A stretch of 35,087 bases of DNA. Source: Alphaproteobacteria bacterium (GTDB lineage: Bacteria; Pseudomonadota; Alphaproteobacteria; Sphingomonadales; Emcibacteraceae). Positions 8,936-13,682 of the stretch are shown here, in pieces. The position numbers and the translations under genes are program-made. The stretch is taken from positions 1-35,087 of the forward strand of contig NVTJ01000012.1 in assembly GCA_002401545.1 (NCBI GenBank). The letters run 5' to 3'. The notes beneath the pieces are model-generated. The model had not been told where the DNA came from and did no database searches. It worked only from the letters and a program-made list of their open reading frames with translations. The stretch's first letter is position 1. Every line of letters begins with the position of its first letter.

Positions 8936-9045
8936 GGCCCCTATTATAGTATAGTGAAGACTTTCTCAAGTGAGAGAATGGCAATGTCACCCTGAATTCA
9001 GTTCAAGGTCCATGTTTGCTATAGACTCCATTGTTCCAACCAACC

Positions 9046-9396
9046 TTAAAAGGCATTGTCCAGATAATGGCGTACGGCGTTCTGGACATGGCGGAAACGG
9101 TCACCGCCCAGATTCTTGCCGCCGTACCAGCGGGTGACCACAATGATATGATTGTGCAATTTTTCCCGCTCAAGCATTCGGATGATGATCATGCCAGCTC
9201 CGGCTTCCCCGTCGTCATTCTTGAGCGGAAGGTCCCCATAAAGGAAAGCCCAGCTATTATGGGTTGCCTTGGCGAATTTCTTCTTTCGGCAGAGCTGTTT
9301 GATAAAGGCCTTTGCCTCCACAGCGGAGTTGCACGGCCCGCCGGAAACCGAATATTTAGACCCCCGGTCCCTAATGATACCATCAAATATACGCAT
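9046..9396 (-). CDS. IMPACT/YigZ (UPF0029) family protein
   Basis: 116 aa with KKFAKATHNSWAFLYG...DDGEAGAGMIIIRMLEREKLHNHIIVVTRWYGGKNLGGDRFRHVQNAVRHYL, characteristic of the UPF0029 N-terminal domain. Confidence 0.85.
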   Translation of the reverse strand: MRIFDGIIRDRGSKYSVSGGPCNSAVEAKAFIKQLCRKKKFAKATHNSWAFLYGDLPLKNDDGEAGAGMIIIRMLEREKLHNHIIVVTRWYGGKNLGGDRFRHVQNAVRHYLDNAF

Positions 9397-9444
9397 AAGA
9401 TGCTATAAATGGATTTGCCAAAGAAAGTCAAGTTTTGGGGAATA

Positions 9445-9479
9445 TGGAAATCAATTGACTCTGACCCCATTGATTCTCT
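9445..9479. repeat. Left copy of a 35-bp inverted repeat
   Basis: atggaaatcaattgactctgaccccattgattctc. Its reverse complement matches 10721-10755 at 31/35 positions by eye. Confidence 0.85.
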
Positions 9480-9548
9480 TAAAATTGGTTCATTCCCCAT
9501 TAGATTAAACGAGTGAGGTGGTCCCGGATTTTTGCACAGTCTGTTAAG

Positions 9549-9610
9549 GGAATCGATGGGGTCAGGAATCGATGGGGTCAGCAGGAATCGAGGAATCGAT
9601 GGGGAATCGG
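9549..9610 (+). repeat. Short degenerate direct-repeat array (GGAATCGATGGGGTCA units)
   Basis: Two perfect abutting 16-mers (9549-9564, 9565-9580), a truncated unit ggaatcga (9584-9591), ggaatcgatgggg (9592-9604), and a trailing aatcgg. Confidence 0.85.
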
Positions 9611-9614
9611 GCGG

Positions 9615-10707
9615 ATTCCACTCCCAAGTGCGACAGTGGGGGTTCAAAGTAGGACATAGTTTACGTAACTGATAGAATGAGGTTTCTGACATCTTATTCA
9701 TTCAAGGAGCAAACCATGTCCTATAGCCATCTTAACGCAAAAGAACGTCATACGCTGATGTTTCTTTCCCAATATCATCTCAGTGCCCGGGAGATCGGTC
9801 GCCGTCTGGGTCGTCATCATAGCAGCATCGCCCGAGAACTGCGTCGTAATGTCCATATTTGCGGCAACTACAGAGATGATTCTGCTCATCAGGAAGCAAA
9901 GGCCCGGCGCAAACAGCCGCGCCACTTCCGGAAACGCTCAAACCGGCCATTGACCGACTATGTTTTGGGTCGCTTACAAGAAGACTGGTCACCCGCAACC
10001 ATTGTTGGTCGTCTGAAAGTCGACTTTCCACGCAGTCGTAAAATGCGTCTCAGCATCGAAGTGATCTATCAGTGGATTTACCGGGATGCCACTCAGGGTG
10101 GCCTGCTGTATCGGCATTTGTTGAGACACCATAAAGGGCGCAGAAGACAAGGGCTTTACGGCCTGTGCCGGGGTCTCATTCCGGGCCGGATCAGCATCCA
10201 TGATCGCCCGGAAAGCATTGCCAGGCGCATACGTTTTGGTCACTGGGAAGGCGATACGGTGGAGGGAGAGAAAGGCACAGGTGGCATTGCCACCCATGTG
10301 GAACGCAAGAGCCGATTGCTCATCGCAGCCAAGCTCACGGACAAGCGGGCAGAGACTTTTACCGGGGCCACAATTAGGGCCTTTAGACACATTCCGCCTA
10401 AGTGGCGCAGGACATTGACTGTTGATAATGGTGGGGAGTTCGCTGGGTTTAAAGTAATCGAGGCAGCAACAAGAATGACTGTCTATTTTGCTGATCCATA
10501 CGCCCCTTGGCAGCGCGGCACCAATGAGAATACCAACGGTTTGCTACGTCATTATTTCCCCAAAGGTATCGATTGGCGCGGCGTGAGCGAAAAACAGCTT
10601 GCGGTGGCGGTGGATAAACTCAATAATCGACCCCGAAAATGCCTCAAATATCAGACGCCAAACGAGGTCTTTCTAAAGAACACAGGTGGCGCACTTGCAA
10701 CTTGAAT
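9615..10707 (+). mobile_element. IS30-family insertion sequence
   Basis: Intact IS30 transposase bracketed by candidate imperfect terminal inverted repeats: left ATTCCACTCCCAAGTGCGACA (9615-9635), right, read as reverse complement, ATTCAAGTTGCAAGTGCGCCA (10687-10707). The CAAGTGCG core is identical. Exact ends uncertain by a few bp. Confidence 0.85.
9716..10705 (+). CDS. IS30 family transposase
   Basis: N-terminal HTH (LSAREIGRRLGRHHSSIARELRRN) and DDE core (HWEGDTVEG, LTVDNGGEF, YAPWQRGTNENTNGLLRHYFPKG). ATG at 9716 preceded by an aaggag SD. Stop codon lies in the right IR. Confidence 0.96.
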   Translation: MSYSHLNAKERHTLMFLSQYHLSAREIGRRLGRHHSSIARELRRNVHICGNYRDDSAHQEAKARRKQPRHFRKRSNRPLTDYVLGRLQEDWSPATIVGRLKVDFPRSRKMRLSIEVIYQWIYRDATQGGLLYRHLLRHHKGRRRQGLYGLCRGLIPGRISIHDRPESIARRIRFGHWEGDTVEGEKGTGGIATHVERKSRLLIAAKLTDKRAETFTGATIRAFRHIPPKWRRTLTVDNGGEFAGFKVIEAATRMTVYFADPYAPWQRGTNENTNGLLRHYFPKGIDWRGVSEKQLAVAVDKLNNRPRKCLKYQTPNEVFLKNTGGALAT

Positions 10708-10720
10708 TCACCTGGGGTCA

Positions 10721-10755
10721 GGGAATCGATGGGGTCAGAGTAAATTGATTTTCAT
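10721..10755. repeat. Right copy of the 35-bp inverted repeat
   Basis: gggaatcgatggggtcagagtaaattgattttcat. It contains a full GGAATCGATGGGGTCA unit at 10722-10737, between the IS30 right end and the RAYT gene. Confidence 0.85.
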
Positions 10756-10802
10756 TTCTATCTATGTTATCCTCCGATTTTAACTCATTAGGGGATATAC
10801 TC

Positions 10803-11531
10803 ATGGCTCGGCTGGCCCGTTTAAACCTCGCCAACGTTCCTCAACATGTGGTGCAGCGCGGCAATAACCGTCAGGCAACTTTCTTTGCCGATGAGGATTA
10901 CGCAGTATATCTGGATAAGCTGAAAGAATATGCCGATAAATATCAAGTCGCCATACATGCCTATGTCCTGATGACCAATCATGTCCACCTGCTGTTGACG
11001 CCGTCCACCAAGACGGGGGTAAGTCAGATGATGCAGGCTCTGGGCCGCTATTACGTGCGCTATATTAATCAGACCTATCATCGTTCCGGCACGTTATGGG
11101 AAGGACGTTATAAATCGACCTTGGTTGACAGTGAAGCCTATTTTCTGTTGCTGAGCCGATATATTGAACTCAACCCGGTTCGGGCTGAAATGGTGGATCA
11201 TCCGGCGGAATACCCTTGGAGCAGCTATCATGGTAATGCTACGGATAAGGATATTGCGCTTCTCTCTCCCCACAACTGTTATAAGGCCCTGGATAAGAAT
11301 GATGTGGATAGAAAGGCTGCGTATGCTGCGCTGTTCAACGATCATATTTCAGAGAAAATAATCGAAGAAATCCGCCATGCTACCGAAAAATCATGGGTGC
11401 TGGGTGACAGTCGGTTTAAACAACAAATAGAGCAGGCAACCGGGCGCCGAACTTCTCCCACTCCGCGCGGTGGAGACAGAAAATCAAAAGAATTTAAAAA
11501 GGCTCAAAAAGAGAAAAGGCAAGACAAGTAA
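10803..11531 (+). CDS. REP-associated tyrosine transposase (RAYT; Y1/HUH, IS200-like TnpA_REP)
   Basis: MARLARLNLANVPQHVVQRGNNRQATFF...HAYVLMTNHVHLLLTP (HUH motif HVH)...GRYYVRYINQTYHRSGTLWEGRYKSTLV...SRYIELNPVRAEMV...YPWSSY. Confidence 0.95.
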   Translation: MARLARLNLANVPQHVVQRGNNRQATFFADEDYAVYLDKLKEYADKYQVAIHAYVLMTNHVHLLLTPSTKTGVSQMMQALGRYYVRYINQTYHRSGTLWEGRYKSTLVDSEAYFLLLSRYIELNPVRAEMVDHPAEYPWSSYHGNATDKDIALLSPHNCYKALDKNDVDRKAAYAALFNDHISEKIIEEIRHATEKSWVLGDSRFKQQIEQATGRRTSPTPRGGDRKSKEFKKAQKEKRQDK

Positions 11532-11604
11532 ATTTTGGCCTTTTCATCCCGACCTGTGTAACCGCGTTAAGTGAACATCACCTCTTGACAAAAGAATATA
11601 AATA

Positions 11605-11619
11605 GAACATAACTAAAAC
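11605..11619. promoter_or_regulatory. Candidate LexA (SOS) operator, alphaproteobacterial GAAC-N7-GAAC type
   Basis: GAAC-ATAACTA-AAAC, one mismatch from GAAC-N7-GAAC, 34 bp upstream of the lexA start and downstream of a TTGACA -35-like hexamer at 11585-11590. Confidence 0.55.
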
Positions 11620-11652
11620 AAATAGTGAAACATTTTGTCAGGAGGCCCTAAA

Positions 11653-12318
11653 ATGCTCACCAGAAAACAGCGGGATTTATTGCTTTTTATCCATGAAAGG
11701 CTTCAGGAAAATGGCGTGGCCCCCTCCTTTGACGAGATGAAAGATGCCCTGAACTTAAAATCCAAGTCAGGAATTCACCGGCTGATTGGCGCGTTGGAAG
11801 AACGGCAGTTCATCCGCCGCCTGCCCAACCGGGCGCGGGCATTGGAAATTTTGCGGCTTCCTGATAGCGAAGAACATACGGCCCAGGATAATTTGTTCAA
11901 GCCTGATTTTGGCAAGAAAGAAGTGGTTTCAGATCCCAACACCGTCGATATTCCCCTGCACGGCAGAATTGCTGCCGGGACGCCGATTGAGGCTCTGGAA
12001 CAATATGAAAATATCCCCGTTCCGGCCTCTATGGTTGGTTTTGGCAGCCATTATGCGCTGGAAATTGATGGCGATTCTATGGTTGAGGCGGGTATATTGG
12101 ACGGCGATACCATCGTTGTTCAACGGTGTGATACTGCGGACAATGGCACTATTGTCGTCGCCCTGATTGACGAGGAAGAAGCCACCCTGAAAACTCTCTA
12201 CAGAAAAGGCCCCGATGTGACATTGGAGCCCTCAAACCGGGACTTTAAAACCCAGATTTACCCGGCAGACCGGGTTCGGATACAGGGTCGGCTGGTTGGC
12301 CTGTTACGACAGTATTAG
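11653..12318 (+). CDS. lexA: LexA repressor
   Basis: [65 protein letters not shown] plus S24 peptidase domain ([27 protein letters not shown]). Confidence 0.97.
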
Positions 12319-12332
12319 CGGCAGAAAGAGGC

Positions 12333-13682
12333 TTATCGCCTTTCCCAACTTGTCCCCTCCGGCCCGTCAAGCAGGGATATGCCCTGTTCTGAAAGCTGAT
12401 TGCGGATGTCATCGGCACGGGCAAAGTCTTTATTCTTCTTGGCCTCAGCACGTTCTGTGATTAATTTTCCGATCGCCATTTCAGAAAGTGCGCTGTCATC
12501 AACAATACCATCAAACCAATCATCCTGTTCCAGAACCCCAAACAGATTGGCCGCTACTTTCAGCTGGCTCGCTGCCCCATCATCATTCACCGCCTTTTTT
12601 GCAAGACTGTTCAGTTCCGCAAGGGCTTTTGGCGTATTCAGGTCATCACGCAGCGCATCCAGAACAGCATTCGGCACCTTCACACCATCCGTATCCACGC
12701 CGTCCGTGAGGCGATACCAGCGGTCCAGTTGTTTCTGGGCCTGCCTGATACCATCGTGGCTGAAATCTACCGGCTGGCGGTAATGGGCGGACAGTAAATT
12801 CATGCGGATGGCTTCGCCCCTACCGGGAAATTCTTCCAGCAAATCATGGACGGTGATAAAATTACCCAAGGATTTGGACATTTTTTCGCCATCCACGGTC
12901 AGATAGCCGTTATGCATCCAGTAATTAGCCAGCGCGATGCCACCATGGGCGCAGCGGCTCTGGGCAATTTCATTTTCATGGTGGGGGAAAATAAGATCCA
13001 GACCGCCGCCGTGAATATCTATGGTATCGCCGAAGTTATCCTCGATCATGCAACTACATTCCAGATGCCAGCCCGGGCGGCCCCGGCCCCACGGGCTGTC
13101 CCATCCCGGTTGGGTCTCCGTGGACGGTTTCCACAGGATAAAATCCGCGGCATCTTTTTTATAGGACGCCACATCAACCCGCGCGCCAGCAATCATCTCA
13201 TCCAGTTTGCGACCGGACAGCTCGCCGTAATTGGACATGCTCGGCACGGAAAACAATGCATGGCCGTCTTTCTTATAAGCATAACCCTTGTCAATCAGGG
13301 TGCCTGTCATTGCGATCATCTGATCAATATAATCGGTGGCCTTGGGGGTTAAGTCCGGCGGTCCGGCATTGAGAGCGGCCATATCCGCTTCATAAATACG
13401 GGCGTATTTTTCGGTAATTTGCGAAATAGAGACACCGCTTTCCTGTGATGCTTCAATAATCTTGTCATCAATATCGGTAATATTACGGGCATAGGTGACG
13501 CGTTTGTAATCATGACGCAGCAGACGCACCAACAGGTCAAACACCACCACCGGGCGGGCATTGCCCACATGGGCATAATTATACACCGTCGGCCCGCAGA
13601 CATAGATCGTCACATGATCCGGGTTAAGGGGGGTGAAGTCTTCCTTCCGCCTGGTCAGCGTATTGTATATCCTGAGTTTCAT
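12333..13682 (-). CDS. cysS: Cysteine--tRNA ligase
   Basis: VYVCGPTVYNYAHVGNARP-type start, WHLECSCM, GGGLDLIFPHHENEIAQSRCAHG, KMSKSLGNF. Confidence 0.98.
   Translation of the reverse strand: MKLRIYNTLTRRKEDFTPLNPDHVTIYVCGPTVYNYAHVGNARPVVVFDLLVRLLRHDYKRVTYARNITDIDDKIIEASQESGVSISQITEKYARIYEADMAALNAGPPDLTPKATDYIDQMIAMTGTLIDKGYAYKKDGHALFSVPSMSNYGELSGRKLDEMIAGARVDVASYKKDAADFILWKPSTETQPGWDSPWGRGRPGWHLECSCMIEDNFGDTIDIHGGGLDLIFPHHENEIAQSRCAHGGIALANYWMHNGYLTVDGEKMSKSLGNFITVHDLLEEFPGRGEAIRMNLLSAHYRQPVDFSHDGIRQAQKQLDRWYRLTDGVDTDGVKVPNAVLDALRDDLNTPKALAELNSLAKKAVNDDGAASQLKVAANLFGVLEQDDWFDGIVDDSALSEMAIGKLITERAEAKKNKDFARADDIRNQLSEQGISLLDGPEGTSWERR

Follow-up and report, generated by a model that had tools for sequence, protein, structure and literature searches.

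The window analysed here, a stretch of 35,087 nucleotides from an alphaproteobacterium of the family Emcibacteraceae, carries an IS30-family insertion sequence enclosed by a pair of inverted repeats, directly upstream of a RAYT transposase gene. What are these outer repeats, and to which of the two mobile genes do they belong? The original prediction regarded them as the REP-type structure of the RAYT gene, interrupted by IS30. A different class of element is also known. TIRtrons or TIRYTs consist of a RAYT-like gene with flanking inverted repeats of consensus GGGGWSAS, as described by Di Nocera, De Gregorio and Rocco 2013 (PMC3733652). We consider it likely that the outer repeats are terminal inverted repeats (TIRs) of TIRYTs, the right arm being the upstream end of the RAYT element and the left arm a solo end, and that IS30 later hit a ladder of truncated ends; cleavage aided by pairing and local copying may have shaped the locus.

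The inverted pair, its ladder and the two transposase genes

A match of 31/35 between 9445-9479 and the reverse complement of 10721-10755 had been claimed, and a recount in the same frame returned the same figure. A repeat search places the arms at 9444-9479 and 10720-10755 (36 nt, 89%, that is 32/36). In 60 dinucleotide-preserving shuffles of region 9000-12600 (3.6 kb), the best 35-nt inverted match scored at most 26 (mean 24.1); the value for the actual pair is 31. The left arm (9444-9479, minus strand) has its core, GGGGTCAGAGT, in the 9457-9467 region, and its outer side points rightward, to IS30 and the RAYT gene. No partner TIR was found to its left within the window. By direct reading, a truncated end copy lies outside and next to this arm (~9491-9509, minus strand, reading TTTAATCTAATGGGGAATG on that strand). 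The right arm (10721-10755, plus strand; core 10730-10740) is located 73 nt 5' of the likely start codon of the RAYT gene (-73), where homologous loci have their canonical upstream TIR. A second inverted match, shorter than the main pair and including flank, joins 9461-9482 to 9544-9565 (22 nt, 91%). This match, the copy at ~9491-9509 and five truncated tandem end copies between the arms had been missed by the original prediction.

The RAYT gene (10764-11531, plus strand) is an intact ORF of 255 aa as listed, with a likely start at 10803. The protein matches Pfam Y1_Tnp (2e-17) and NCBIfam REP_Tyr_transpos (73.9 bits, slightly below the cut-off of 80). H73, H75 and Y133 are invariant among 15 homologues. 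The structure model has a pLDDT of 85, and its best PDB match is 4er8, the TnpA_REP-REP complex. Homology and predicted structure identify the protein as a HUH/Tyr single-strand nuclease. The model contains helices at 180-192, 197-209 and 216-226, and no Pfam domain was found in the C-terminal part. A C-terminal helix-turn-helix extension is a feature of Y1 transposase subclass 2.1 (PMC6006769).

The insertion sequence spans 9610-10712 (1103 bp, plus strand). Its imperfect terminal repeats match each other at 17/23 positions, with GGCGGATTCC starting at 9610 and GAATTCACC ending at 10712; the ends carry GGCGGATTCCACTCCCAAGTGCG and GGTGAATTCAAGTTGCAAGTGCG. The transposase gene (9677-10705, plus strand, 342 aa) is an intact ORF scoring 283 bits against NCBIfam NF033563 (IS30; cut-off 80). 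Transposase and terminal inverted repeats together are the features of the IS30 family. As had been predicted, these ends are nested within the outer pair, so that the outer repeats are not the IS ends. No clear target duplication (2 bp in IS30) was seen in the flanks, AATCG on the left and TGGGG on the right. Further copies of the IS30 ends were found in G005, G013, G017 and on contig C135 of the window genome (G000); these other copies are fragments.

The element has landed among truncated copies of the RAYT end that are arranged head to tail as a ladder. Five such tandem copies, with a common locus-specific flank, lie upstream of the right arm. They occupy 9548-9609 (plus strand; GGGAATCGATGGGGTCA, GGAATCGATGGGGTCAGCA, GGAATCGA, GGAATCGATGGGG and AATCG) and 10713-10720 (plus strand; TGGGGTCA), the latter being the remainder of the rung split by IS30. 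When the flanks of IS30 are joined, GGAATCGATGGGG and AATCG run directly into TGGGGTCA and then GGGAATCGATGGGGTCAGAGT, which nearly restores a rung, one base short of the others. IS30 thus split a rung, and the proposed insertion of IS30 into a RAYT-associated repeat is supported by the interrupted array. The first rung is flanked by TTAAGGGAATC, which resembles TTAAGAGAATC beside the left arm; a target-like flank is thus common to the two ends.

At either end of an intact element, the core is read inward. Both arms of the window turn their outer side to IS30. Because the outer side of the left arm faces the RAYT gene, this arm cannot be the other end of the RAYT element. Judged from their orientation, the arms are ends of two elements, the right arm being the upstream end of the RAYT element and the left arm a separate solo end in opposite orientation. 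A search for the core downstream of the RAYT gene found no TIR at its 3' end, so this copy may no longer move as a unit. It is best called a truncated, one-ended TIRYT derivative with IS30 in its ladder. The downstream TIR is likewise missing in the closest relative, G005 (73% identity). Upstream of the G005 RAYT gene, a solo TIR faces the gene and the same IS30 is represented by its left tip; the flanking genes are different. This arrangement suggests that the composite of solo TIR, IS30 and RAYT is older than the window genome.

The repeat as a terminal end of RAYT elements

The core was searched at 35 RAYT loci, upstream, downstream, in opposite orientation and ~1 kb away. It is found upstream of the gene in 18 loci, mostly 70-90 nt before the ATG, and inverted downstream in 19, mostly between -15 and +30 of the stop codon. 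Fourteen of the 35 have it at both gene ends, including G006, G007 and G029 from the family of the window. Controls gave 2 upstream and 2 downstream matches in opposite orientation, and 0 in windows ~1 kb off. In 12 additional Pseudoalteromonas loci, some of them re-sampled from the first 35, the core was present upstream in 11 and downstream in 11. This fixed place at the gene shows that the repeat bounds an IS-like RAYT element as its terminal inverted repeat. The core GGGGTCAGAGT fits the published TIRYT consensus GGGGWSAS, as does GGGGTCAG, found in both arms and in the homologues. Copies also occur elsewhere, single, paired or clustered, as in TIRYTs; the TIRs on both sides that define these elements are represented in the window by the upstream one alone. 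PMC6006769 ties the TIRYT arrangement to Y1 transposase subclass 2.1, which it matches to group 1 of the RAYTs in Bertels et al. 2017. The window element is probably close to this TnpA-Y1 subclass 2.1.

The window genome, 74% complete, contains three good core copies: the two arms and one on contig C135. Core copies are present in 15 of 33 family genomes (reversed-core control, 0), with up to 8 copies per genome in the genus and up to 26 in Pseudoalteromonas. The many intergenic copies that had been predicted are therefore seen in several relatives (up to 26) and not in the genome itself (3). The repeat is neither confined to the window, as the 15/33 family genomes show, nor a companion of IS30: RAYT loci carrying the repeat and lacking IS30 were found in relatives, with the core at its fixed place. 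The outer pair is tied to RAYT by this fixed place and by co-occurrence. To that extent the original prediction was right; the pair is not a REP, nor the two ends of one unit.

TIR-like sequences were observed at contig ends of the window genome (C83:2-20 and C21:101-119; L007, L004). Such repeats may interrupt the assembly, so that the copies of this genome may be undercounted. In G006, inverted core pairs occur on C80 and C98, with ~114 bp between the outermost core bases. The C98 pair is a 114-bp TIR miniature element (C98:2726-2839; L038 ~1470-1620) that breaks an Rhs-like frame (...GNPFRYTGRRL, then stop). An identical 114-bp copy is found at C80:17262-17375 with different flanks. Other end-repeat families fitting or resembling GGGGWSAS were seen in the same genus (GGGGGACACAATA, GGGGACAGTGTACATATTT and ACCGTAATACAAAAGTAAACTGTCACCGTAAT, the last beside a 36%-identical RAYT; at L149:1590, L152 ~1440-1480, L028:2482 and L031/L051/L055).

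RAYT relatives were drawn from the family, public genomes and plasmids. Those from public genomes belong to Bowmanella, Pseudoalteromonas, Colwellia, Methylophilaceae, other Betaproteobacteria, Salinisphaerales and a delta MAG; phages gave a single match, weak and partial. A Pseudomonas aeruginosa plasmid record (NZ_CP116719.1; L168) contains three RAYT copies of 44% identity amid polymorphic-toxin-type cassettes. The present TIR core was not found in that record.

Ladders of truncated ends and clustering near the gene

Similar ladders are present in alpha-, beta- and gammaproteobacterial loci, also at loci without IS30. Using 153 non-redundant ends, we found 18 with an upstream copy of their 10 flank bases plus GGG. 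Within-genome swaps, taken as the null, gave a mean of 5.5 and a maximum of 9. Rung flanks match their own locus at 3.50 of 6 nt, versus 1.81 when shuffled (maximum 2.60 in 2000). The flanks being locus-specific, rungs arise in place and not via new insertions.

Head-to-tail, locus-specific rungs are also what ordinary replication slippage or tandem duplication predicts. In that case the ladders would be passive and unrelated to RAYT, and the identity of the TIR would stand. We regard this origin as possible, though not the one we would choose. The ladders lie on the outer side of the TIR ends, the inner-side control of the same test giving 2 against 18. By inspection, most rungs stop inside GGGGTC(AG). 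Unrelated genomes, isolates among them (Bowmanella, Colwellia and Pseudoalteromonas sp. THAF3), have ladders as well. Our preferred reading is that the ladders are products of the RAYT reaction.

The second pattern concerns where TIR copies accumulate. It was found in Pseudoalteromonas; the window genome has 3 copies. CAAWGGGGTCAGAGT is present in 17 of 61 Pseudoalteromonas genomes, whereas the control gave one match in all. A RAYT gene of at least 60% identity occurs in 8 of the 9 genomes with at least three copies, versus 1 of the 52 others (Fisher p = 2.7e-8). In those eight genomes, 52 of 101 TIR copies, the gene's own ends excluded, are located within 20 kb of the RAYT gene, versus 0.77 expected. 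Per-genome P values range from 9e-3 to 6e-25. The genes around RAYT are ordinary (DEAD helicase, pseudouridine synthase, thioesterase, spermidine synthase), and the TIR copies are mostly between genes.

We infer that this clustering reflects local spread of TIR copies. Alternatively, an old cluster may have been inherited, or the region may simply tolerate insertions. The RAYT locus is indeed orthologous in at least three species (G047, G069 and G097, with the same upstream neighbour), and the eight clustered genomes are thus not independent. However, TIR copies are at differing places among the species compared. In G085, G093 and G036, the RAYT gene has other flanks and the clusters are still present. 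The ordinary character of the surrounding genes also speaks against an old or tolerant region, and we hold this alternative to be rather doubtful. Local spread remains the explanation that we favour.

TIR copies crowded within ~20 kb of the RAYT gene, mostly between ordinary genes, were noted at L110 (G036 C40:1-15000), L126/L127 (G035 C55), L141 (G037 C64), G047 C4 and G069 C13. The idea that TIRs belong to defence or toxin islands was discarded, the genes round RAYT in G036 and G035 being ordinary. Five Pseudoalteromonas species (L204-L212; G047, G086, G097, G069, G036) have either a RAYT element or a TIR right behind one conserved gene, whose 3' end reads ...WHIIKVLYRT. This spot is possibly an insertion hot spot.

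Possible target pairing and relation to known systems

From these patterns we infer that pairing guides the choice of target, that the clustering results from local copying, and how ladders arise. As a HUH/Tyr transposase of single strands, RAYT is likely to recognise GGGGTCAGAGT and would cleave beside it at a target resembling ATCAAT. Pairing of the ATCAAT-like target with the inner ATTGAT would help cleavage. RAYT would then copy or move ends, mainly to nearby sites, and ladders would be left behind where the reaction aborts at an end already present. In this way, five truncated head-to-tail copies of the type flank, target and GGGG(TC(AG)) would have accumulated at the RAYT end of the window, and an IS30-family element would have inserted into one rung afterwards.

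The outer bases next to the core are ATCAAT in the window, ACCAAT in G036, GATCAA in Bowmanella and AAAA in G042, and they are complementary to the inner bases. Across clades this complementarity has a z of 7.3 versus shuffles, a value that overstates the number of independent events because the sequences are related. Locus by locus, no pairing signal was seen within the family of the window, in G036 or in most genomes. The cross-clade signal could come from terminal palindromes borne by the element instead of target choice. In young copies the similarity drops abruptly at -8, and the MITE pair of G006 differs at -4 to -6, as would be seen if the outer bases derived from the target. No clean empty site was found among orthologous Pseudoalteromonas sites, where intergenic DNA has diverged too far between species for the exact junction to be read.

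As a tentative generalisation, TIRYTs might spread their ends mostly within ~20 kb of their own gene, choose targets by ATTGAT/ATCAAT pairing, and add one rung with each aborted reaction. If true, ladders would be a readable record of RAYT activity, and IS30 would use them to land. From this locus and its relatives come a consensus end whose place at the gene is fixed and candidate target and guide positions. The two measurable traces, near-gene clustering and truncated-end ladders, offer a direct way to test cleavage, targeting and local spread.

The window element is a degenerate TIRYT, a known but little-studied kind. Like the TIRYTs/TIRtrons of PMC3733652, it has a RAYT-like Y1 gene, inverted repeats unrelated to GTAG REPs and fitting GGGGWSAS, and further repeat copies at other genomic places, alone, in pairs or in groups. 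Unlike them, the window copy has the upstream TIR alone. The ladders and the near-gene clustering are what this locus and its relatives add. No description of end ladders or of clustering within ~20 kb, and no mechanism for TIRYTs, was found in the available parts of PMC3733652 and PMC6006769, subscription literature lying outside the search. A literature text search for the motif letters gave only unrelated matches among the matches listed.

With REPtrons (E. coli TnpA_REP, PDB 4er8), the element shares the transposase fold, which is the best structural match, and a repeat tied to the gene. This link, and inverted pairs elsewhere such as those on C80 and C98 of G006, could favour the original view of GTAG-type REPs (REPtron or REPIN) broken by IS30. 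We find that view very unlikely and reject the REP assignment. No GTAG tag adjoins the arms in the sequence, no stable hairpin was found in them (folding z 0.19 and -0.53), and the three copies of the own genome contrast with the usual >100 of GTAG REPs. The core matches the TIRYT consensus instead.

The Y1 fold is also that of the IS200/IS605 family (IS608, ISDra2), with which the TIRYT ends may share base pairing between guide and target next to the ends (PMC8266576). IS200/IS605 elements use as guide a tetranucleotide that lies, at each end, 5' of a stable hairpin. In contrast, the TIR end is only weakly self-complementary, and a single sequence, inverted, acts at both ends.

Finally, five other IS families are known to include elements that target REPs, for example ISPsy8, ISPa11 and ISPpu9 (PMC1525189), and IS30 inserts preferentially into near-palindromic hot spots or its own ends (PMC9333248). 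In G000 and G005, IS30 DNA is near a TIR (~60 bp or less) in 5 of 8 places, although two of the loci counted, the window and that of the G005 RAYT, are possibly not independent. This is far more than the ~0.001 per place that we estimate for genomes of 2-2.7 Mb with 3 to 8 TIRs. At ~136 kb of G005 C9, a TIR directly adjoins IS30 coding sequence (CCAAAT followed by AGGGTCAGAG), so insertion may go both ways. IS30 scraps of ~30-160 bp, some in mosaics, are scattered across genomes of the genus (L159, G005 C1:23253-23412; L152, L153, L154, L163). The five places could also be taken to mean that IS30 owns the repeats and the ladder, as target or insertion by-product, with RAYT adjacent by chance; this reading is very unlikely and is rejected because TIRs flank RAYT genes across several classes and in genomes with no IS30 nearby, and ladders exist without it. 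A specificity of IS30 for the ladders of TIRYT ends is only suggested, the copies being few. As with the REP-targeting ISs of PMC1525189, the window IS breaks a RAYT-associated repeat that the joined flanks nearly restore; unlike them, it belongs to the IS30 family, absent from those five, and has no clear target duplication. This IS30-family element is thus a candidate addition to the ISs landing in RAYT-associated repeats.
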